Assembly: GCA_012729115.1 (NCBI GenBank)
Contig: JAAYDR010000019.1
Location: forward strand, 1 to 44,415
Source of the DNA: Clostridiales bacterium
GTDB lineage: Bacteria > Bacillota > Clostridia > Christensenellales > Aristaeellaceae
Direction of reading: 5' to 3'
DNA length: 44,415 nt
Shown here: piece by piece, positions 3,850-18,895 of the stretch
How positions within the stretch are numbered: position 1 is the stretch's first letter
How the letters are laid out: each line of letters begins with the position of its first letter
Translations under genes and position numbers: made by a program
Notes under the pieces: model-generated
What the model saw: only the letters and a program-made list of their open reading frames with translations
What the model was told of the DNA's origin: nothing
Databases searched by the model: none

Positions 3850-4977
3850 TTATTTGCTTTTGCGATTCCTGATCGCCGTGGATCGCCTTGCGCCAAGTAG
3901 TTTTTCTGCCAAACGGACGATACCGTCCTGAGAAAAATAGGCTTCATTGGGCACGGGTGGTTCGCTCATCACCTTCGCCCAAGCTTCGGGGCTGATTTCC
4001 AGCTTTTTCAGGATGTATGCCTCATCCTCTTTCATCTGTTGGGGATCATAGGGGGGTCCATCCAGTTCCTTCATTGCTTCTTCCCGGGTGATCTCGCCGT
4101 TGTTGATCAGGCAGGAGAGATGGTAACGGCGCTTGTCATAACCGAACTTCGCAAGAAGGTAGGCCGACTGGAACCATTTGGTGAAACGGCTTTCAAAATG
4201 TTTTCCGCCGTAATACTCCCAGCCAAATTCGCTTGAGAGCGTTTGGATCGCTTGTTTCTTTGAATAGGGGATATAGTTGAGAAGATTCACTTGCGCAATG
4301 GCTGCAAACTTCCATCGCGCCTGAATAAGAGAAAGATGGGGATATTTCCGGAGGCTTTTGCCGCGGCCCCAGCGGCGGTAAACACTGCGCAGATGCCAGT
4401 AATCCATGCAGCTGATCTGCCGGGAAAAGGGGGAGGATGCGCCCTCGGTTGCGATGTTTGTGCCATTAAGCACATAGCGGACTCCGTACTCTCGTGCAAA
4501 CCGGTACACTGCCGCAACCAGCAGGTGATCCTGCGGCACATCCAGATTCGCCAGGCCTGAAAACAGGTATGCGCGCTGCAGTTCCTTCATTGTTGGCCAG
4601 TCCATCACGATGGTGTGCAGCTGCAGGTGCAGCCGATCACATAAGCGCTCAATGTTGCGCACAGCAACTTCGCTGTTCCAGCCCGTATCCACATGCACGG
4701 CCAGCATCCTCAGCCCCAGCTTCCCGGCAGTATACGCCAGATAGGCGCTATCCACCCCGCCGGAGATGCCGATAATACAGTCAAACTCCTTGCCCTTGCC
4801 ATCTGCTTTGATCTGAGCCACCAGCGCTTCCAGTTCCCGTTCGCTCTCTCCTGCGCGATAACCACGCAGCGCCTTTTGCTCGTCATATCGTCTGCAACAG
4901 TTGCATATGCCGTTCTCATCCATCGTTACGGACGGGTCACTCCCATCCATCACACAACGCGCACAAATTTCAGGCAT
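3850..4977 (-). CDS. N-acetyl sugar amidotransferase (WbpG/PseA family)
   Basis: This 375-residue protein matches the N-acetyl sugar amidotransferase family, which uses ammonia from a HisH/HisF-like pair to convert a sugar acetamido group to an acetamidino group on cell-surface glycan precursors. A Cys cluster at the N-terminus (Cys5, Cys8, Cys25, Cys27, Cys28) probably binds metal. The ATP-binding PP-loop is Ser72-Gly-Gly-Val-Asp-Ser77. The C-terminal half has the family-like segments rich in Tyr and Trp. It is the last gene of a three-gene operon, overlapping the HisF-like gene by eight bases. No sialic-acid-like or O-antigen sugar synthesis genes are near, so the substrate cannot be named. 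Confidence 0.85.
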   Translation of the reverse strand: MPEICARCVMDGSDPSVTMDENGICNCCRRYDEQKALRGYRAGESERELEALVAQIKADGKGKEFDCIIGISGGVDSAYLAYTAGKLGLRMLAVHVDTGWNSEVAVRNIERLCDRLHLQLHTIVMDWPTMKELQRAYLFSGLANLDVPQDHLLVAAVYRFAREYGVRYVLNGTNIATEGASSPFSRQISCMDYWHLRSVYRRWGRGKSLRKYPHLSLIQARWKFAAIAQVNLLNYIPYSKKQAIQTLSSEFGWEYYGGKHFESRFTKWFQSAYLLAKFGYDKRRYHLSCLINNGEITREEAMKELDGPPYDPQQMKEDEAYILKKLEISPEAWAKVMSEPPVPNEAYFSQDGIVRLAEKLLGARRSTAIRNRKSK

Positions 4978-5746
4978 GCCGATACACCCCCAGTTCCATC
5001 AGTTCCTTTTCATCAGGCACATGGATCAGCACCGCCCGGCGCGTACCATAAAAGACATACATACTTCCCGCTGCCGCCGCGTGAGCCCCGGCCTGATGAA
5101 GCACAACTTCCATATCCTTCGCGCTGCTTGCGCCACCGCAGGCGATCAGTGGGATCTTCACCGCGTCAGCGACGCTCCGCACCAACTTCAGGTCATATCC
5201 CTGCATGGTGCCGTCCCGATCGATGCTATTGAGCAGGATCTCCCCTGCACCCAGTGCCTCTGCGCGCTGCGCCAGCTCTACAGGTGTGCCCTCTACCTGC
5301 CGCGTGCCGTCGCAGGTCACGCAATGATATCGCCGCAGGATGTCCTGCTTTACATCTATGGAAACGATAACGCTCTGTACACCGAACTGGGCGGCTATTT
5401 CGCCAAGCAGCTCCGGACGCTCCAGCCAGCCGGTGTTGAGCACCACCTTTTCAAAACCGATGCGAAACAGCTGCCTCACCTGATCGACTGTGGTGATCCC
5501 TCCGCCATAGCTCAGGGGCATAAATGCCTCCGTGGCGATTTCTGCGAGCAGTTCAAAGTTTGGTCCGAGACCGTTTTTGCTGGCATTAATATCCTGTATG
5601 CACAGCTCGTCCACACACTTTTCACTAAAAATCTTCACAGCGTTGATGGGATCACCCAGGTAGGTGGAATCCTTGAATTTTTGGGTTTTTACCAGATTGC
5701 CGTCGGACAGAAGCAGGCAGGGGATCAGCCGCGGACGATGATACAT
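4970..5746 (-). CDS. HisF-like subunit of sugar amidotransferase cassette
   Basis: This 258-residue TIM barrel related to imidazole glycerol phosphate synthase HisF begins in typical fashion (RPRLIPC). Where HisF has its catalytic Asp11 (CLD), this protein has Leu12, while the second catalytic Asp is kept as Asp131 in VSIDVK. That loss, and the neighbouring WbpG-like gene, place it in the HisF2/WbuZ-type group that channels ammonia to a sugar amidotransferase rather than making histidine precursors. The ATG at 5746 is chosen because GGAGGT (5756-5761) is nine bases upstream; the ATG at 5755 would touch that site. It starts two bases after the HisH-like stop. Confidence 0.85.
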   Translation of the reverse strand: MYHRPRLIPCLLLSDGNLVKTQKFKDSTYLGDPINAVKIFSEKCVDELCIQDINASKNGLGPNFELLAEIATEAFMPLSYGGGITTVDQVRQLFRIGFEKVVLNTGWLERPELLGEIAAQFGVQSVIVSIDVKQDILRRYHCVTCDGTRQVEGTPVELAQRAEALGAGEILLNSIDRDGTMQGYDLKLVRSVADAVKIPLIACGGASSAKDMEVVLHQAGAHAAAAGSMYVFYGTRRAVLIHVPDEKELMELGVYRHA

Positions 5747-5748
5747 GC

Positions 5749-6369
5749 CTAACATACCTCCGCGAAGTTTTTCAACAAGGACATACCGAAGCGATGACTC
5801 TTCTCCGGATGGAACTGTGTGCCCCATACATTACCGTGCCGTACTGCGGCCACAAAGGAATACCCATATTCGCACAGCATCAGCACATCGGCCTGGTTGT
5901 CGCACTGGGCATGATAGCTGTGCACAAAGTAATAACGCGGAGGTTCCGATACCCCCCGCACAATGGGATCGGGCTCGTGTTTTATCGTCACGTAATTCCA
6001 TCCCATATGGGGCACTTTAAGCCCGGGCTGATCCTGCAGGCGGAAACGTATGTTGCGAAAGGGGATATATCCCAGTCCCTCACATTTACCTTCCTCGCTG
6101 GAAAGTCCCAGCATCTGCATCCCCAGGCAAATGCCCAGCACCGGTTTTCCGGTGGTCACTGCGGTATCCAGTGCCTGGCGCATACCGCTTTTATCAAGCC
6201 TGTCCATGCCCTCGTCAAACGCGCCGACACCCGGCAATATCAGTTTGTCACAGGCTGCAAGAGCTGCGGCATCGTACACAATTGAGCTTTCGCAGCCCGC
6301 TTTCTTAAGCATATTCCGTATGGAGCCGACATTGCCGATTCCATAATCCAGAATGCCGATCAACCGCAT
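5749..6369 (-). CDS. HisH-like glutamine amidotransferase subunit
   Basis: This 206-residue class I glutamine amidotransferase has the full triad: nucleophile Cys81 in GICLGMQ, His187 and Glu189 in QFHPEKS. It also has the HisH-type N-terminus (ILDYGIGNVGS) and the GVGAF motif. Its role is to release ammonia from glutamine for the partner HisF-like barrel, which passes it to the sugar amidotransferase. Family membership alone would allow a histidine role. The HisF partner's lost catalytic Asp, the third gene of the cassette, and the absence of any other his genes argue for glycan amidination. It is first in the operon, downstream of a strong promoter. Confidence 0.85.
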   Translation of the reverse strand: MRLIGILDYGIGNVGSIRNMLKKAGCESSIVYDAAALAACDKLILPGVGAFDEGMDRLDKSGMRQALDTAVTTGKPVLGICLGMQMLGLSSEEGKCEGLGYIPFRNIRFRLQDQPGLKVPHMGWNYVTIKHEPDPIVRGVSEPPRYYFVHSYHAQCDNQADVLMLCEYGYSFVAAVRHGNVWGTQFHPEKSHRFGMSLLKNFAEVC

Positions 6370-6916: not shown

Positions 6917-7996
6917 TCACGATCCACATGATATCTCCGCCAAGATCCGCCTTGTCATCTCCCCGCTTGTCACATAAGAACCGCCCGATGCAATGTCCCT
7001 GGTACGAAAGCCTTTTTCCAGCACCTTTTCAACCGCGGTTTCCACTGCCTTGGCCTCCTCCGCAAGGCCAAAGGAAAGATTGAGCATCATGGCGGCAGAC
7101 AGGATGGTGGCAATGGGGTTGGCAAGACCCTGTCCCGCTATGTCGGGAGCGGAGCCGTGGATGGGCTCATACATACCCCGGGTACCCTCCCCCAAGGAGG
7201 CGGAGGCCAATAGGCCTATGGAGCCGGTCAGTTGCGATGCTTCGTCGGAGAGTATGTCACCAAAAAGGTTGCTGGTGACGATCACGTCAAACTGGGACGG
7301 ATTCTGGATGAGCTGCATGGCGGCGTTGTCTACCAGCATGTCTGAGTACGCAACATCCGGGTACTCTCCAGCCAATTCGTGCATGACTTCTCGCCAAAGC
7401 CGGGAGCTTTCCAGTACATTGGCCTTGTCAACGCTGCATACTTTTTTTCTTCGTTTGAGGGCTGCTTCAAAAGCCATTCGGCCGATGCGAAGGATTTCGC
7501 CCCGGCTGTAAATTTCTGTATCATAGGCGGTTTCTCCCAGGTCACCCTGGCTACGGCCACGGGGTCCAAAATACATACCACCGGTAAGTTCCCGCACGAT
7601 CAACAGATCCACGCCTTTATCAGCGATGTCCGCACGCAGAGGGGAGGCGGAGGCCAGCATGGGCAAAAGCTTTGCCGGGCGCAGGTTGGCAAACAGGTTC
7701 AATTCTTTGCGGATGCCCAACAATGCACGCTCAGGCCGAAGATGGCCCGGCTTTGTGTCCCATTTTGGACCGCCTACAGCCCCCAGCAGTACACTGTCGC
7801 TATGCAGACATTTCTCCAGTGACTCCTTGGGCAAGGGCACGTCAAACTGGTCCAGCGCTGCGCCGCCGGCGACTACCGTTTCAAACTGAAATCCATGGCC
7901 ATATTTTTCTCCCACTGCTTTTAGCACCGCCACGGCTGCATCCACGATCTCCGGGCCAATACCGTCGCCGGGAACCAATGCAATATTGAAGGTCAT
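6917..7996 (-). CDS. leuB: 3-isopropylmalate dehydrogenase
   Basis: This 359-residue enzyme oxidatively decarboxylates 3-isopropylmalate (and, in the citramalate route, 3-methylmalate) with NAD. The N-terminus [13 protein letters not shown], the RxxRxxL substrate stretch ([22 protein letters not shown]), and the metal-binding [15 protein letters not shown] segment are all present, as is the NAD-site GSAPDIAG. Length is normal. It is last of the nine-gene BCAA operon and overlaps leuD by four bases. Confidence 0.97.
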
Positions 7997-8478
7997 GCTA
8001 TCTCCCCTCCGGCCATGGCGTTCATAAGCCCTCCTGACTCGATAATCTTCTGCAGGAAGGCTGGAAAAGGTGGGAAGGAGTGTTCCTCTCCTGTGGTTCT
8101 GTTAAGAATTCTCCCTTGCTCCAAATCAATTTCCAGAGTGTCGCCGCTCTTAAAATCACCGTCACAGATGATGATGGGCAGGCCGATGTTAATGGCGTTG
8201 CGGTAAAAAATACGGGCAAAGCTCTTGGCAATCACACAGGAGATACCGGCTGTTTTGATGGCCAGGGGTGCGTGCTCCCGGGAGGAGCCGCAGCCGAAGT
8301 TGCACCCCGCTACGATCACATCACCTGGCTTTGTTTTTTTAAGAAAATCCGGATCAATGTCCTCCATGCAATGGACAGCCAGTTCCTTGGGATCGGAGGT
8401 ATTCAGATAGCGGGCGGGGATGATGACGTCGGTGTCCACGTTATCACCGTAGCATAGGGCGTTTCCATGTAACAGCAT
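7993..8478 (-). CDS. leuD: 3-isopropylmalate dehydratase small subunit
   Basis: This 161-residue subunit works with LeuC to isomerise 2-isopropylmalate to 3-isopropylmalate, and citramalate to 3-methylmalate when CimA is present. The family segment [18 protein letters not shown], with the Ser-Arg substrate residues, is intact, and the short (about 160 residues) bacterial/archaeal-type form is seen rather than the 200-residue enterobacterial form. The stop overlaps leuB in an ATGA arrangement, and leuC lies 44 bases upstream. Confidence 0.95.
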
Positions 8479-8522: not shown

Positions 8523-9785
8523 TCATTGCAATTCTTCCGGCGAAGAGAGCTTCCCGGTTACGGCCGAGGCCGCAGCCACCGCGGGGCTGGCAAGGTAGAC
8601 CTCACTTTTGGGATCGCCCATGCGGCCTACAAAGTTGCGATTGGTGGTGGCCACGCAGCGTTCGCCCCGGGCCAGGATGCCCATATGACCGCCCAGGCAC
8701 GGTCCGCAGGTGGGGGTGGAAACGGCGCACCCGGCGTTGATGAAGATTTCCAGCAGGCCCTCCTTCATGGCGTCCAGCCAGATCCTCTGGGTGGCGGGTA
8801 TGATCAAAGCTCTTACGCCCTTGCATACCATGCGGCCTTTCAAGATTTCCGCGGCCTCCCGCAAGTCCGACAATCTTCCGTTGGTACAGGACCCTACCAC
8901 TACCTGATGGATGGGCACCTCTCCAATTTCATCAAAGGTTTTCCCATTTTCAGGCAGGTGGGGAAAGGCCACCACAGGGGTTAACTGGGAAAGGTCGATA
9001 TGGATGGTCCGCTCATAAGCTGCGTCCGGGTCGGCAGCGTATACTTTGGGCTCCCGGGCTCCGTGCTCCTTTAGGAATAAATAAGTCTTTTCGTCTACGG
9101 GGAAGATGCCGTTCTTCGCTCCGGCTTCGATGGCCATGTTGCAGATACACAGCCGGTCGTCCATGGAAAGAGAATGAGCGCCCTCTCCCGAAAACTCAAG
9201 GGATTCATACAGTGCGCCGTCCACGCCGATTTTATGGATGAGATGCAAAATTATATCCTTGCCGGAAACATACTTGCGAAGCCTGCCCGTAAGAACCACA
9301 GAGATCGCGGCAGGTACCCGTAGCCACACCTTGCCGTAAGCCATGGCCGCCGCCATATCGGTAGAGCCAACGCCTGTGGAGAAGGCACCCAGCGCGCCGT
9401 AGGTGCAGGTGTGGCTGTCCGCGCCAATTACCAAATCCCCGGCGGTGACCATGCCTTTTTCCGGCAGCAGAGCATGCTCTACGCCCATTTCACCCACGTC
9501 AAAAAAGTTCTCAATGGACTTTTCATGGGCGAATTCCCGCACATGTTTGGTTTGTTCAGCCGCTTTGATGTCTTTGTTGGGGGTAAAATGGTCCATTACC
9601 AAAGCGATTTTCCCGCAATCAAATACGCAGTCGCACCCGGCCTTCATAAACTCGTTGATTGCCACAGGAGCGGTGATGTCATTGCCCAGCACCAGGTCGG
9701 TATCGGCCAGGATCATATCTCCCGGACGCAATTCGTCTTTGCCGCAGTGAGCGGCCAATATTTTCTGGGTCATGGTCATGGACAT
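8523..9785 (-). CDS. leuC: 3-isopropylmalate dehydratase large subunit
   Basis: This 420-residue aconitase-family subunit carries the [4Fe-4S] cluster. The cluster ligands are visible as the Cys of VVGSCTNGR and the two Cys of [24 protein letters not shown] is the substrate-site loop. It pairs with the short LeuD encoded next. The ATG at 9785 is chosen because GGAGG lies nine bases upstream; two further in-frame ATGs follow within six codons. It overlaps the end of cimA by ten bases. Confidence 0.96.
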
Positions 9786-11356
9786 GGGGCCACAGCCTCC
9801 TTTTTGTGCAGAATGTATTCAATGGAATCGGACAGCGCCTGCCAACTGGCTGCAATGATGTCTGTGGATACGCCAACGGTGGTCCACGTGCTTTCTCCAT
9901 CGCTGGACTCGATGAGTACCCGGACGCTGGAGGCAGTGGCCGCGCGGCCTGTCAGCACGCGTACCTTATAGTCGATGAGGCGTACCTTGTTCAGCTCGGG
10001 ATAGAAGACGGCCAATGCCTTGCGCAGAGCCATATCCAGGGCGTGCACGGGACCGTTCCCCATGGCGGCTGTGGTCTCCTGCTGTCCGTCCACCTGGATG
10101 GATAGCATGGCGGAGGCACTCTTGTCTCCGTCCGGATAAGGATACTCTCCGCTGATGCGGTACATGCCCAGGGTAAAATGGGGGGTAAAGTGCTTAAGAG
10201 CACGGGTGACCATGAGTTCAAAGCTGGCGTCCGCTGCTTCGAACTGGAAGCCCTGATGCTCCAGTTCCTTCAGCTGGGTTACGATCGCAGCCACCTCAGG
10301 GGACTCCTTGTTGAGGCCTGGAGCAATGGAGGAGAGTTTGGCCAGTACCGTGGTGCGGCCGGATACCTCGCTCATGAGGAAGCGGCGTTCATTGCCTACG
10401 GCGTCCGGTGGCACGTGCTCAAAAGAGCAGGAGAGCTTGCTTACACCGTCAATGTGCATGCCTCCCTTATGGGCGAATGCACTGGCACCCACATAAGGCT
10501 TGCCCGCGTACAGGGACATGTTGCAAAGCTCTGACAACCGGATGGCCGTGTGGCGCAGATTGGACAAATCGCCTATGCAATGAAGGCCCATCTTCAAGCG
10601 GATACCGGGGATGATGGAGCTTAGGTCCGCATTGCCGCACCTTTCCCCAATGCCTGTAAAGGTACCCTGCACCTGAACGGCTCCGGCCCGTACTGCCAAA
10701 AGGGAGGAGGCAACCGCGCAGCCTGCGTCGTTGTGGCAATGAACCCCGATACGGGTATCGGGATAGAGGGAGCAGATTTTTTGCACCACATCATGGATGG
10801 CATCAGGAAGCATGCCGCCATTGGTGTCGCATAAACACAGCACATCAGCCCCTGCCTGATGGGCGGCGGAAAGCACCTTTAGGGCGTAGGCGGGATTTTC
10901 CCGGTACCCGTCAAAGAAGTGCTCCGCATCAAAGATCACTTCCTTCCCATGCGCTTTGAAAAACTCCACGCTGTCGGATACCAGGCGCAGGTTTTCCTTC
11001 AGGCTGGTTCCAAGCACCTGCAGCACATGCAGATCCCAGGCTTTGCCAAATATGGACACGGTGGCGGTATCCGCCGTCAGCAATGAAAGGATGTTCTGGT
11101 CCTCCTCCGCCTTGACTCCCTTGCGGCAGGTGCTTCCAAAGGCGCACAGGCGGGCATTTTTCAGCGTCAGACCCTTCACCCGCTGAAAAAATTCAATATC
11201 CTTGGGGTTGGAGCCGGGATTGCCCGCCTCGATATAGTCAACCCCGAATTCATCCAAGGCTTTGACGATGCTTATTTTATCGCTGACGGAAAAGGAGATG
11301 CCCTCTCCCTGAGCCCCGTCCCGAAGCGTGCTGTCGAAGATCTCAAGCTTCCTCAT
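9776..11356 (-). CDS. cimA: (R)-citramalate synthase
   Basis: This 526-residue DRE-TIM metallolyase condenses pyruvate and acetyl-CoA to citramalate, opening the threonine-independent isoleucine route. The N-terminus [19 protein letters not shown] is characteristic of CimA-type sequences (RDGAQGEG, against RDGEQAPG in LeuA). The metal site GVHCHNDAG is present. A C-terminal LeuA-type regulatory dimer domain runs from about residue 390 and probably mediates isoleucine feedback. It sits between leuA and leuC, 15 bases after leuA, so the same LeuBCD can serve both chains. The RDGAQGEG type could also be annotated as an alpha-isopropylmalate/homocitrate synthase homologue. Confidence 0.92.
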
Positions 11357-11371
11357 GGGACCCCTCCTTCA

Positions 11372-12870
11372 CTACAGTTTGTTCATGCCATTGATGTAGG
11401 CCAGGATGCTGGCCTCCACGATGTCGGTGGACAGCCCCCGGCCTGTAACCACCCGATCACCGCAGCGAATCTTCACAATGGCCTCGCCCTGGGCGTCCTT
11501 ACCTTCGGAGATGGTTTGGATGGCGTAATCCTCCAGGGAGTGGGGCGGAGCGGGAATCAGTTTGTCTACAGCGTTAAAAGCGGCATCGATGGGGCCGTCG
11601 CCCAAGGCTACTTCCTCGGTACGCTCCCCGTCATGAAGGACGCTCACCACAGCATTGGAGGTGACATAGTTGCCGCTGTTGACAGTAAAGCGTTCCAGGC
11701 GGTAACCGGTACCCGAGGCGATACCGCTGAGGCGGTGTAATGCTAACGCCTCCAGGTCATGGTCGCTGATGGTCTTCTTACGGTCGCACAAGTCCTTGAA
11801 CCGGGCAAAGAGCAGGTCCAGTTCCTCCTTGCTCAGTTGATACCCCAAGGCACTGAGCCGCTCCTCAACTGCGTGGCGGCCGCTGTGCTTGCCCAGCACC
11901 ATGCGGTTTTGCATCAGACCGATGGATTCCGGTGTCATGATTTCATAGGTGGCCCGGTTTGCCATGACCCCGTGTTGGTGGATGCCCGCCTCATGGGCAA
12001 AGGCGTTTTGCCCCACAACAGCCTTGTTCATAGGAGCGTTAACACCAAGGATGCTGTATACCAGGCGGCTCAAGGGGGAGATGCGGGAGGTTTCCACAGC
12101 GCACTCAAATGGATACAGGTCCTTGCGTGTATGCATGGCCATGACGATTTCTTCCAGGGCGGCGTTGCCTGCCCGCTCTCCAATACCGTTCACGGTGCAC
12201 TCCACCTGGGTGGCTCCCGCTCTTACCGCTGCCAGGGAGTTGGCTACAGCCAACCCCAGGTCATTGTGACAGTGAACCGAGAGTGTCACATTGTCGATAT
12301 TTTCAACGTTCTTTTGAAGATACTCAAGCATTTCCGCCATTTCACTGGGCATGGCATACCCTACGGTATCGGGGATGTTGATGATGCTGGCTCCAGCCCG
12401 GATGGCAGCATCCACCGCCTTGGCCAGGAAGGCTGGGTCGGAGCGCATGGCGTCCTCGGCGGAAAACTCAACCTGTGGGCAAAGATTACGGGCATATGCC
12501 ACCATAGAGGAGACGGTATCCAACACTTCCTGCTCCGACATCTTCAGCTTGTATTGCATATGGGTGGGAGAGGTGGCCAGGAAAGTATGGATGAGGGGCG
12601 AGTTGGCCTCCTTCACTGCGTTCCAGGCCACATCGATGTCTTTTTTGGTGGCTCTGGAGAGGCTTGCCACGGTGCTGCTTTTCAGTACACGGGCAATCGT
12701 CTGCACCGATTCAAAATCCCCCTGGGAGGCAATGGCAAAACCTGCCTCAATCACATCTACCTTCATCCGTTCCAGAGCCTGGGCGATTTCAATCTTCTCT
12801 GCCAGATCCATGCTGCAGCCGGGTGCCTGTTCTCCATCCCGTAATGTTGTATCAAAGATTCTAATCTGTT

Positions 12871-12874
<4 letters not shown>
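11372..12874 (-). CDS. leuA: 2-isopropylmalate synthase
   Basis: This 500-residue enzyme makes the first committed step to leucine from 2-oxoisovalerate and acetyl-CoA. It has the motifs [15 protein letters not shown] at the start, [16 protein letters not shown] for metal binding, and [15 protein letters not shown]-terminal regulatory domain (from about residue 375) is the usual leucine feedback site. Length is normal for the LeuA type 1 family. The start overlaps the ilvD stop by four bases, implying coupled translation. Confidence 0.97.
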
Positions 12875-16062
<3,188 letters not shown>

Positions 16063-16066
16063 GGTT

Positions 16067-17734
16067 TTACCCCCTCACGATCATGTCTCGAATGGTTCCG
16101 TTGGGCGGGATCATGGGCAACACCTTTTCATCCCGATGGATGCGGGCATCTATTACCACCGGACCGGAAAGTTGGAATGCCTTATCCAGGACGGACTCCA
16201 GCTTGTCGATGGAGTCAAGGCGAAATCCCTTGGCCCCAAAGGCCTGGGCCAGCAGAACAAAATCGGTGGCACGATTGAGCGTCGTATTGGAATAGCGGCG
16301 GCCAAAAAACATGGTCTGCCACTGGCGGACCAGGCCCAATACGCTGTTGTTGAGCACCACCACAATCAAGGGCAGGTGATGGGTCACTGCCGTGGCCAGC
16401 TCATTCATATTCATATGGAAGCTGCCGTCGCCGGTGAACAGTACCGTTTTCTTCATCCCTGTACCGATACAGGCGCCAATGGCCGCACCCAGACCAAAGC
16501 CCATGGTTCCAAGCCCCCCGGAGGTAATGAAGGTACGGGGCTTGTGAAAGCTGTAGTATTGCGCGGTCCACATCTGATGCTGGCCCACATCGGTGATCAC
16601 GGGGCAATCAGGCGCAAAGCGCTGGTTGACAGCCTTCACCACCATCTCAGGATTGAGGCGGCTTTTGTCCATGGCAAGGTGATTGTCCGGCGCAGCTGTC
16701 AGTTCCTTAACCTCACAAATCCAAGCCGGGTCGGATTTTTGCAGGCCACAGGCGTTGAGTGCTATCAAGGTTGCCTTCACATCTGCCACCAGGGATACAT
16801 AGGCAGGGATGTTTTTACCGATTTCCGCCGGGTCGATGTCGATATGAAGCACTTTCCGGTTTTTAGAGAACTCGATTTTGTTACCGGTGGCACGGTCGGA
16901 AAAGCGGGATCCCACTGCAATGATCAAATCGGACCGGTCCATCGCCTGGGTGGCGGCATATCGTCCATGCATGCCTGTCATACCCAGGAACAGAGGATGG
17001 TCATGATCCACGGCGGATAAGCCCATGATGCTGGTTCCAATGGGAGCGCCGATGGTCTCGGCCAGCGTTACCAGTTCATCTCCCGCTCCGGCTGCAACCA
17101 CGCCGCCACCGGCATACAAAAAGGGCCTTTTGGAGGATGCAATCAAATCCGCGGCCTGCTCAAGAGCTTGGTTATCCGGGGCTTTTAAAGGGAGCGCAAC
17201 TTCCTTGGCCTTTGGTATAAAATCGCATTCGGCGATCTGAACGTCTTTGGGGATATCCACCAGCACAGGCCCTGGTCTGCCGGACACCGCAATCTCAAAG
17301 GCGTTTCGAAGCGTTTCCGCCAGGCGCGTCACGTCCTTTACCATATAATTGTGTTTGGTAACGGACATGGTGATGCCTGTGATGTCCACCTCCTGAAAGC
17401 TGTCGCGGCCAATGAAGGTGCAGGGTACGTTGCCGGTGATGGCTACCATAGGGGTGGAGTCCATAAAGGCTGTAGCAATGCCGGTCACCAGGTTGGTAGC
17501 GCCGGGACCGGAGGTGGCAATCACCACGCCGGTTCGCCCGGTAGCGCGGGCATAACCGTCGGCGGCGTGGGCCGCCCCCTGCTCATGACTGGTGATGATA
17601 TGACGGAGCCAGTGGGAAGCCTTGTACAACTCGTCATAGATATTCAGCACAAAACCGCCCGGATATCCAAATACCGTATCCACCTTTTCCTCTTTGAAAA
17701 CTTCCATCAGAATCTGTGCGCCGCTTAGCTTCAT
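16067..17734 (-). CDS. ilvB: Acetolactate synthase large catalytic subunit
   Basis: This 555-residue thiamine-diphosphate enzyme joins two pyruvates, or pyruvate and 2-oxobutyrate. The catalytic Glu lies in SHEQGAAHAADGYARATG, the central domain is complete, and the ThDP/Mg motif is GDGSFHMNMNELATAV followed by VVVLNN. The ATG at 17734 follows GGAGGG by six bases; an in-frame GTG just before it is less well spaced. It is the first structural gene of the operon, directly after the attenuator. Confidence 0.97.
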   Translation of the reverse strand: MKLSGAQILMEVFKEEKVDTVFGYPGGFVLNIYDELYKASHWLRHIITSHEQGAAHAADGYARATGRTGVVIATSGPGATNLVTGIATAFMDSTPMVAITGNVPCTFIGRDSFQEVDITGITMSVTKHNYMVKDVTRLAETLRNAFEIAVSGRPGPVLVDIPKDVQIAECDFIPKAKEVALPLKAPDNQALEQAADLIASSKRPFLYAGGGVVAAGAGDELVTLAETIGAPIGTSIMGLSAVDHDHPLFLGMTGMHGRYAATQAMDRSDLIIAVGSRFSDRATGNKIEFSKNRKVLHIDIDPAEIGKNIPAYVSLVADVKATLIALNACGLQKSDPAWICEVKELTAAPDNHLAMDKSRLNPEMVVKAVNQRFAPDCPVITDVGQHQMWTAQYYSFHKPRTFITSGGLGTMGFGLGAAIGACIGTGMKKTVLFTGDGSFHMNMNELATAVTHHLPLIVVVLNNSVLGLVRQWQTMFFGRRYSNTTLNRATDFVLLAQAFGAKGFRLDSIDKLESVLDKAFQLSGPVVIDARIHRDEKVLPMIPPNGTIRDMIVRG

Positions 17735-17750
17735 CACGGTCCCTCCTTAT

Positions 17751-17790
17751 AAAAAGAACCCCCTGATCCGTATATACACGGACCAGGGGG
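17751..17790 (-). terminator. Attenuator terminator upstream of ilvB
   Basis: On the minus strand the arms 17778-17790 and 17759-17771 form a 13-bp stem (one G-U pair) with a six-base loop, followed by TTCTTTTT. The left arm can instead pair with an upstream segment at 17834-17847, where TATATAC and CAGGGG are complementary to the GTATATA and CCCCTG of the terminator region. That gives a competing antiterminator. The terminator ends 17 bases before the ilvB start. Confidence 0.85.
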
Positions 17791-17811
17791 TATTAGCACA
17801 TCCTTATCTGC

Positions 17812-17934
17812 TTATGCTCCTACCGTTCTCCCGCCCCTGCGTATATACAAAAACCCGCCGACGACCAGTACGCTAATTCGTACAAGGACGACGACGAGAA
17901 TAAGGACGAGAAGGCCCAGGGATAGATGGTTCAT
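17812..17934 (-). CDS. Branched-chain amino acid leader peptide (attenuation)
   Basis: This 40-codon reading frame has a strong GGGAGG site four to five bases upstream and a BCAA-saturated core: residues 8-18 read LLVLILVVVLV, followed by RISVLVV. About half of the first 25 residues are Leu, Val or Ile. Its last part encodes the antiterminator arm (residues around FLYIRRG), so a ribosome stalled for lack of charged Leu/Val/Ile tRNA would free that arm and let transcription reach ilvB, while one running to the stop would mask it and allow termination. This is the enterobacterial ilv leader design. No T-box signature is seen. The peptide itself is not expected to have another function. Confidence 0.85.
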   Translation of the reverse strand: MNHLSLGLLVLILVVVLVRISVLVVGGFLYIRRGGRTVGA

Positions 17935-17961
17935 AAGCGCCTCCCAGGAATGATTTTGATA

Positions 17962-17991
17962 ACGGTATCACAGGAGGGGACGGATTGTCAA
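17962..17991 (-). promoter_or_regulatory. Putative promoter of the ilv-leu operon
   Basis: A perfect TTGACA lies at 17986-17991 on the minus strand; a weak -10 (TACCGT, 17962-17967) follows 18 bases later. It lies 28 bases ahead of the leader peptide start. Confidence 0.5.
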
Positions 17992-18064
17992 GCGGATGAT
18001 TGTTTTTTCAGTGTATTGGTCGTATGGAATCGATAGAAGCAGTGCCGCTTATCTATTGCAGGCT

Positions 18065-18895
18065 TCACACCTGAATCCTGTGTCTTTTTCCGATGATGCT
18101 TTTGGGGTTGTACCCTTTGATTTGGGTGAACATGCGGCTAAAATAGTACACATCGCAAAAGCCGCAGTTTTCCGATGCTTCGGTGACGTTGCACATGTTG
18201 TTCTTCAGAAGCGACTCCGCATGGTTCACGCGAATGATGTTGATGTAATGGCTCAGTTTCATACCCATACTCCGGTGAAAAAGAACGGACAGGTACGATG
18301 GCGACAGATGCACCAGCTTTGCCAGTTCGTCCAGGGGAATGGGTTGATTGTAGTGCTCCGTAATATACTCAATGATTTGCCTGATGCGAACATCCGCCAC
18401 CGAGACAGGGTTTTTGTGAACCGCAAGGCCCATCAACTTTCCGATGATCAGTTCCATATAGGCCCGCACGATGAGCCGAAAGCCCGTTTCCTGCAACAAC
18501 CATGAAGTGGAGAGGGATTTAAGCTGAGCGATTAGCTCCGGATGAATGCCAATGGGTGCAACCATTTGGAAGGGGAGGCGGTCTATCAGCCCACCGTCCA
18601 TATCCTGAAGGTGAAAGTTCATGGCATATACCTCAAACCGCTGCAACTGCGTTAGCTGCGCCTCCCGGCAAGTCCCTGGGGGAATGTACAGCAAGTCACC
18701 CTTGCGAACGATTACGGTACGACCATCAAGCACATAGGAGGCCTCGCCACCCACCACGTAACTGATATCGTGAAAATCAATCACAGAAGGCACGATGGTC
18801 CAGGATTGGTCAGCGTTACGGTAGCTGAAATAATCCAAATGCGGGAGCATGCCGTCATAATTTGTACAATGCGGCAAGGCATGATTTCCTTCCAT
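18065..18895 (-). CDS. AraC-family regulator of the aldouronate operon
   Basis: This 276-residue regulator has an N-terminal cupin-like sugar-sensing domain (VLDGRTVIVRKGDLLYIPPGT, about residues 60-85). Its C-terminus has two AraC helix-turn-helix motifs (LDELAKLVHLSPSYLSVLFHRSMG, then VTEASENCGFCDVYYFSRMFTQIKG). The start at 18895 is set by AAGGAGG eight bases upstream; the frame continues further but without support. It is the last gene of the permease-permease-SBP-GH67 operon, 55 bases after the alpha-glucuronidase, so it probably activates this operon in response to an aldouronate or glucuronate. Confidence 0.9.
   Translation of the reverse strand: MEGNHALPHCTNYDGMLPHLDYFSYRNADQSWTIVPSVIDFHDISYVVGGEASYVLDGRTVIVRKGDLLYIPPGTCREAQLTQLQRFEVYAMNFHLQDMDGGLIDRLPFQMVAPIGIHPELIAQLKSLSTSWLLQETGFRLIVRAYMELIIGKLMGLAVHKNPVSVADVRIRQIIEYITEHYNQPIPLDELAKLVHLSPSYLSVLFHRSMGMKLSHYINIIRVNHAESLLKNNMCNVTEASENCGFCDVYYFSRMFTQIKGYNPKSIIGKRHRIQV

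Follow-up and report, generated by a model that had tools for sequence, protein, structure and literature searches.

A probable ribosome-mediated attenuator of an ilv-leu-cimA operon in an uncultured Clostridia-like bacterium, with likely relatives in other phyla

Introduction

Which element governs the ilv-leu-cimA operon on the minus strand of the window, by which we mean the whole 44,415-nucleotide stretch of DNA analyzed here, and what signal does it read? A first-pass annotation had proposed that a Leu/Val/Ile leader peptide, a terminator, and a competing antiterminator act together as a ribosome-mediated attenuator, and had called this arrangement unusual for Bacillota. We place the probability that the element is a ribosome-mediated transcription attenuator of the operon at about 0.92. 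What was computed here, namely the parts, their conservation, the mutual fit of the antiterminator arms, and switching behavior in a folding model scanned by ribosome position with Escherichia coli controls, supports the proposed mechanism, as does finding neither a T-box at this locus nor CodY; the surprise was overstated, given Listeria and Staphylococcus aureus. Ribosome-mediated attenuation of branched-chain amino acid (BCAA) synthesis is classical in E. coli.

Leader and operon

The operon reads ilvB-N-C-D-leuA-cimA-leuC-D-B on the minus strand and comprises ilvB (acetolactate synthase large subunit, 16067 to 17737, NCBIfam TIGR00118), ilvN (acetolactate synthase small subunit, 15550 to 16062), ilvC (ketol-acid reductoisomerase, 14535 to 15542), ilvD (dihydroxy-acid dehydratase, 12871 to 14565), leuA (2-isopropylmalate synthase, 11372 to 12874), cimA (citramalate synthase, 9776 to 11356), leuC (isopropylmalate dehydratase large subunit, 8523 to 9785), leuD (isopropylmalate dehydratase small subunit, 7993 to 8478), and leuB (3-isopropylmalate dehydrogenase, 6917 to 7996). 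ilvB starts at GTG 17737 or at the in-frame ATG 17734, the latter being likelier and in agreement with most relatives; LeuD scores above the LeuD/DmdB subfamily cut-off and slightly below that of the leuD equivalog. A PF00977 histidine-biosynthesis-type barrel protein is encoded at 4970 to 5827, past leuB and in the same orientation, with no his operon visible near it in the window.

Upstream of ilvB, on the same strand, the 40-codon leader frame (17812 to 17934; ATG 17934-17932, TAA 17814-17812), which has counterparts in relatives, follows the ribosome-binding site (RBS) GGGAGG at 17940 to 17945, whose duplex with the anti-Shine-Dalgarno octamer is worth −10.2 kcal/mol. The strong RBS and BCAA-rich frame first annotated are thus both present: the peptide, MNHLSLGLLVLILVVVLVRISVLVVGGFLYIRRGGRTVGA, contains Leu, Ile, or Val at 21 of its 40 positions (9 Leu, 9 Val, and 3 Ile), and it is hydrophobic with a basic C terminus. 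Its regulatory stretch, codons 8 to 25 (17860 to 17913), was delimited by codon reading and by a drop in antiterminator probability just past codon 25; 16 of these 18 codons specify Leu, Val, or Ile. A promoter candidate read from the sequence, TTGACA (17991-17986) and GATACC (17969-17964) separated by 16 nt and together spanning 17964 to 17991 on the minus strand, carries 9 of 12 consensus letters; it is weak on paper, with a poor −10 element, and a standard promoter scan reported nothing at this position.

Terminator, antiterminator, and proposed mechanism

Between leader and operon, a terminator scan finds an intrinsic terminator at 17758 to 17791 (minus strand, −27.8 kcal/mol) with a 4-nt loop, directly followed by the U-run TCTTTTT at 17757-17751; terminator and U-run stand as originally described, and the stem is 15 bp long (9 G-C) rather than 13. 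Duplex computation assigns the 5′ arm of a competing antiterminator to the last leader codons (17821 to 17851) and its 3′ arm to 17766 to 17791, comprising the 5′ arm of the terminator, its loop, and part of its 3′ arm. An antiterminator between 17834-17847 and 17771-17790 had been suggested and is indeed present, the best duplex joining approximately 17851-17821 to 17791-17766 at −27.4 kcal/mol, compared with −18.9 ± 3.8 kcal/mol for shuffled leader ends (p = 0.015; 200 shuffles). It excludes the terminator, and its 5′ arm is within reach of the ribosome. The leader RNA as a whole folds better than its shuffles (z = −4.0; 1 of 200 equally good).

The centroid fold contains a further hairpin, formed by the regulatory codons within the leader frame (17854 to 17898), which does not include the antiterminator arm and might be a pause or 1:2 hairpin; comparable hairpins occur in relatives L012, L020, L030, L034, and L040. 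In these loci and in the window, the BCAA-codon hairpin is followed by a U-rich stretch immediately 5′ of the antiterminator arm, and perhaps such a hairpin pauses RNA polymerase and so keeps polymerase and ribosome in step.

From this arrangement we infer transcription start, translation, stalling, termination, and an amino acid response as follows. RNA polymerase would start just 5′ of the leader, and a ribosome would load on the strong RBS and translate the Leu/Val/Ile-rich leader behind the polymerase. Should charged Leu-, Val-, or Ile-tRNA become scarce, the ribosome would stall in codons 8 to 25, leaving the 3′ end of the leader free to pair with the emerging 5′ arm and loop of the terminator and permitting read-through into ilvB. 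With all three charged tRNAs ample, a ribosome at the stop codon would mask the arm, the terminator would form, and transcription would end near 17751.

Leaders before ilvB in relatives

A DNA search of 60 relatives with the window leader matched only its own genome, and relatives were therefore reached via IlvB. The best 80 of 291 relatives supplied loci from named genomes, which together with the window gave 81 ilvB upstream regions, and these were screened by a detector for a short BCAA-rich open reading frame followed by a terminator, at normal and strict settings. The detector was positive in 55 of the 81 regions (47 under strict settings), compared with 4 of 972 dinucleotide shuffles (strict, 0) and 15 of 1,454 further 400-nt stretches drawn from these loci (strict, 3); BCAA leaders are thus conserved among relatives, as the first-pass annotation had suggested should be checked. 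The 55 leaders are 25 to 48 residues long (median, 35) and start with ATG in 42 cases and with GTG or TTG in 13, the detector's choice of start codon being uncertain in places. The median distance from the leader stop codon to the start of the terminator is 24 nt (range, 14 to 69), and a TTGACA-type −35/−10 pair matching at least 10 of 12 letters precedes 30 of the 48 leaders whose upstream sequence is long enough, compared with 3.0% of letter shuffles. Some leaders from Lentisphaerota/Verrucomicrobiota (L021, L028, L032, and L035) lack a good RBS.

Codon use in the leaders departs from that of the genes they precede. In the 55 pooled leaders, which include related and hence nonindependent loci, Val is encoded by GTA at a frequency of 0.39 and by GTG at 0.05 (0.12 and 0.39, respectively, in ilvB genes), Leu by CTA at 0.15 (0.02 in ilvB), and Ile by ATT at 0.58 (0.27 in ilvB). 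This bias, of a kind discussed for attenuator leaders in PMC1183508, may partly serve RNA structure.

At many loci, the final stretch of the leader frame is able to base-pair with the 5′ arm of the terminator and, notably, with its loop: GAGUUUUACC pairs with terminator-side GGUAAAACUC in L018, GUACUGCC with GGCAGUAC in L036, and GGUUUUGCC with GGCAAAACC in L064. Over the 55 loci, leader ends bind their own terminators at a mean of −19.9 kcal/mol, compared with −15.5 ± 0.42 kcal/mol for permuted partners, and none of 5,000 permutations, which leave in the base composition common to a genome and the kinship among loci, reaches the own-pair mean (lowest, −17.3 kcal/mol). The own pair falls in the best quarter of swaps at 41 of the 55 loci. 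Taken one at a time against shuffles, the window's nearest relatives show weak antiterminators (p = 0.33 for L011, 0.20 for L012, and 0.06 for L013). These three combine arm UUUUGCGUAUGCCA with loop CCGUGGAAUACGG, and the window combines arm UUUUUGUAUAUACGCAGGGG with loop CCGUGUAUAUACGG, so that arm and loop have been altered jointly while the peptide went from LRMP in the relatives to LYIRR in the window.

Three loci (L132, L133, and L134) carry a leader and terminator before the ilvB of another IlvB clade in the same family, with the terminator set farther away (45 to 59 nt), and are possibly independent attenuators. In the Lentisphaerota/Verrucomicrobiota assemblies L021, L028, and L032, two leader-terminator units lie in tandem about 100 to 320 nt before ilvB and so provide a natural setting for testing how two serial attenuators behave; L026 and L035 may hold a second unit that is less rich in BCAA.

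Ribosome position and the folding switch

A model ribosome covering 15 nt downstream was placed at each codon, and the emerging transcript was folded to mimic cotranscriptional folding. For transcript ends from +18 to +28 of the terminator, a ribosome anywhere in codons 4 to 25 of the window leader leaves about 0.9 of the terminator 5′ arm engaged in upstream pairing; this pairing declines from codon 26 and is 0.0 to 0.1 at the stop codon. In the folding model, then, a stall frees the antiterminator arm and a ribosome at the stop codon masks it. The complete terminator of the window prevails at equilibrium for every ribosome position (0.85 to 0.97), and the choice must therefore be kinetic. 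Known attenuators likewise choose kinetically between terminator and antiterminator.

The same behavior is general among the 55 loci: median upstream pairing is 0.92 when the ribosome sits on the final BCAA codon of the densest run, compared with 0.03 at the stop codon, and it drops by more than 0.4 on the way to the stop at 45 loci when measured from mid-run and at 46 when measured from that final BCAA codon. Averaged over loci, the drop is 0.65, against 0.22 in shuffled leaders (55 loci; Wilcoxon p = 6e-9). Ten of the 55 loci show no switch between mid-run and stop, and L017, L027, L041, L043, L060, and L079 show none at either stall position tested. The positive controls, E. coli leuL, ilvL, and ivbL, give the same kind of scan profile, leuL being the weakest.

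Spread of the attenuator across phyla

Are these leaders one family, or has the same solution been reached many times? A quick, unrooted IlvB tree (104 rows, LG+G4, SH-aLRT support only, with long-branch warnings for L126, L082, and L068 with L086) places attenuators nonrandomly: the attenuator label changes 11 times, compared with 34.5 times when shuffled, and 0 of 500 shuffles were as low. The label "none" here takes in L059, L132 to L134 with their hits outside the main clade, and also L014 and L033, where a contig end truncates the region and leaves a partial leader and/or terminator. A clade of 51 rows (support, 86) has attenuators in 44; its members are Bacillota, 4 Spirochaetota rows, and 10 Lentisphaerota/Verrucomicrobiota rows (group support, 100), and Coriobacteriia lie nearby. 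Tree rows are mostly metagenome assemblies, and L029 is a named strain, Oligosphaera ethanolica DSM 24202, with a 5.7-Mb contig.

A sequence-only model (R1) was built from 11 Bacillota leaders, which were hand-picked from the 55 and are therefore no random sample. Over 54 loci (432,785 bases), R1 gives 24 matches at E ≤ 5, every one immediately upstream of ilvB; 13 of them fall in the Lentisphaerota/Verrucomicrobiota loci, all 10 of which are matched (E = 1e-14 to 1e-4), and 11, mostly weaker, in further loci. Both tandem copies are recognized in L021, L028, and L032. By type of locus, R1 matches 21 of 44 leader-bearing loci, 0 of 6 T-box loci, and 0 of 4 stretches of the window's genome; by phylum, it matches 1 of 4 Spirochaetota loci (L044, E = 9e-4) and 1 of 3 Coriobacteriia loci (L073, E = 0.002). 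R1 matches neither the window leader nor any of three E. coli BCAA leaders, and it does match the window's relative L012 (E = 0.012). Judged by sequence, leader homology across phyla is good for Lentisphaerota/Verrucomicrobiota and only suggestive for Spirochaetota and Coriobacteriia, and the window leader would be tied to the cross-phylum family through its close kin and the tree.

The leaders of different phyla could instead have arisen independently, no single family having been carried with the operon. Their sequences are short and of simple composition, 23 of the 44 leader-bearing loci searched, the window included, are unmatched by the Bacillota model, and unrelated BCAA-rich ilvB leaders clearly exist in other lineages, as in E. 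coli. We nevertheless hold convergence to be unlikely, because a model built on Bacillota leaders finds every Lentisphaerota/Verrucomicrobiota locus at such E values, places every match just before ilvB, and passes over the three E. coli leaders, and because the label follows the IlvB tree. Since the model matches all 10 Lentisphaerota/Verrucomicrobiota loci and none of the three E. coli leaders, the attenuator probably moved between phyla together with its operon. Our favored reading, which we regard as reasonably probable, is that of one homologous BCAA attenuator family, without Rfam matches here, that spread with the ilvB operon among Bacillota, Lentisphaerota/Verrucomicrobiota, and, less surely, Spirochaetota and Coriobacteriia, stands in for T-boxes within one Clostridia-like family, and became tandem in some lineages. 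Such an attenuator would be self-contained: with ribosome, tRNA, and polymerase as its sole requirements, it could function in a new host. An operon with its own ribosome-based sensor is independent of any host regulator, which may ease its movement between phyla.

T-boxes and other possible sensors

An Rfam search of the whole window returned one tRNA only and no T-box (RF00230), in line with the original reading of the upstream region, and Rfam 15, its BCAA leaders included, has no family at the curated cut-off within 17600 to 18080. Four matches there lie far below cut-off (E = 0.9 to 9.8; two microRNAs, one snoRNA, and one enterobacterial sRNA). A T-box or other Rfam element at the window ilvB was rejected for want of a match at cut-off. 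CodY was sought as PF06018, which has no match in the window's genome (about 96% complete), the positive controls from Bacillus subtilis and Lactococcus lactis being detected.

Elsewhere in the same genome there are 11 T-box matches at E ≤ 0.001, 2 of them above the Rfam cut-off; the genes downstream of the eight best include, among others, I/L/M/V-group class I, methionyl-type, and seryl-tRNA synthetases. The best match of all (L001; G000 contig 23, 28966 to 29201) has what seems an odd T-box neighbor, a DUF1385 protein about 370 nt downstream. Within the window's family, a T-box stands directly before ilvB in L111, L114, and L118, and an attenuator stands before ilvB in genera g14, g19, g53, and g59; T-box and leader-peptide control exchange before the same gene within one family. 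T-boxes directly before ilvC in L105/L119 and L107 (genus g72) constitute a third arrangement of BCAA control in this family. A T-box scan of 40 of the 80 named loci found T-boxes before ilvB in 3 of 26 loci without a leader hit (L070, L077, and L080) and in 0 of 14 with one.

Attenuation could be real and yet be governed by another sensor, either an unrecognized riboswitch (for ppGpp or an amino acid, for instance) or an RNA-binding protein. The leader RNA is well structured, and a ppGpp riboswitch class controls other ilvB leaders in some bacteria according to PMC10272879. We consider such a sensor highly improbable, given that no Rfam family reaches cut-off in the window leader and that what is conserved is a BCAA-rich frame, an RBS, and a masked arm, with no aptamer-like core. 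The thought that the frame codes for a small membrane protein that has a role of its own, the terminator merely imposing constant polarity before ilvB, draws on a conserved frame and on a hydrophobic peptide with a basic C terminus like those of single-span small proteins, but it deserves scant credence, for L, I, and V swap freely among relatives, the C terminus varies with RNA pairing and is not kept as protein, synonymous codon bias is strong, and neither partner fit nor ribosome-dependent switching would be predicted.

Relation to known systems

Set beside E. coli ilvL (ilvXGMEDA), ivbL (ilvBN), and leuL, the window attenuator shares a BCAA leader frame, a terminator about 20 to 24 nt past the stop codon, a stop-masked arm, and the scan profile; it differs in that no sequence relation was seen (the Bacillota model matches 0 of 3) and in that antiterminators of the present family use the terminator loop heavily. 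Closer at hand, ribosome-mediated attenuation of a Bacillota ilv-leu operon is described as shown for Listeria Rli60 (PMC5864092), which has a 13-amino-acid leader before ilvD, plus CodY, whereas the window has 40 codons before ilvB and no CodY was found. The account in PMC5794164 supports attenuation of S. aureus ilv-leu and cites predictions for Lactococcus and Streptococcus; like the window, the S. aureus attenuator has a BCAA-rich leader peptide, a terminator, and no T-box, and unlike it, the leader is 26 amino acids long, leucine centered, located before ilvD, and accompanied by CodY. Given these two precedents, the Listeria one shown and the S. aureus one supported, BCAA attenuators as a class are no novelty in Bacillota.

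Beyond Bacillota, PMC10272879 describes BCAA-rich upstream open reading frames (uORFs) before ilvB in Corynebacterium and suggests them in Leptospira; attenuation is supported or suggested there for the Corynebacterium ilvB-II motif, ilvB-OMG, and the Leptospira ilvB motif. These belong to other lineages and are likened to the window leaders by description; a spirochete BCAA uORF has thus already been suggested in print. A parallel exchange of regulators has been proposed for histidine: Bacillota his leader peptides take the place of a T-box, with T-box/leader exchange proposed (PMC2965389), and one his operon is proposed to have been transferred with its attenuator (PMC9413887). As described in these two reports, the his leaders resemble the window in using a leader peptide instead of a T-box and differ in reading histidine rather than BCAA and in a proposed transfer that stays within Clostridia.

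The mechanism and its occurrence in Bacillota are therefore known; what is newer is the wide, homologous, and probably mobile family and the finding that, within one family, ilvB has either a T-box or an attenuator. In the literature searched, we found no report of BCAA leader attenuation in Lentisphaerota/Verrucomicrobiota. The probable attenuator of the window extends ribosome-stalling control of BCAA synthesis to an uncultured Clostridia-like family and, via its relatives, to those phyla, and the paired leader ends and terminators are a candidate for a curated RNA family.

The operon in its genome

Window-type IlvB occurs at E ≤ 1e-100 in only 1 of 17 genomes of the genus, the window's own, and ilvC scores over cut-off in 52 of 150 sampled family genomes; the presence of this IlvB in one genus genome alone may reflect gain by transfer or loss in relatives. 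Its absence from the 16 other genomes led us to consider misbinning of the contig. The operon part lies at tetranucleotide distances of 0.14 to 0.22 from nine stretches of its own genome and 0.29 to 0.37 from four stretches of relatives, own-versus-own distances being 0.08 to 0.31; composition thus fits the own genome, and misbinning of the operon part is unsupported. The right part of the contig (31 to 44 kb) is less typical: its distance to the own genome is 0.16 to 0.40, and a single stretch from a g14 genome stands at 0.17. In samples of 60 genomes of the family, two glycosidases encoded on the contig show no greater closeness to the genus than to other genera. Positions 18000 to 44415 of the window carry sugar genes (GH67, GH65, a sialic-acid-type esterase, and an ABC solute-binding protein) at a GC content of 0.51, compared with 0.56.
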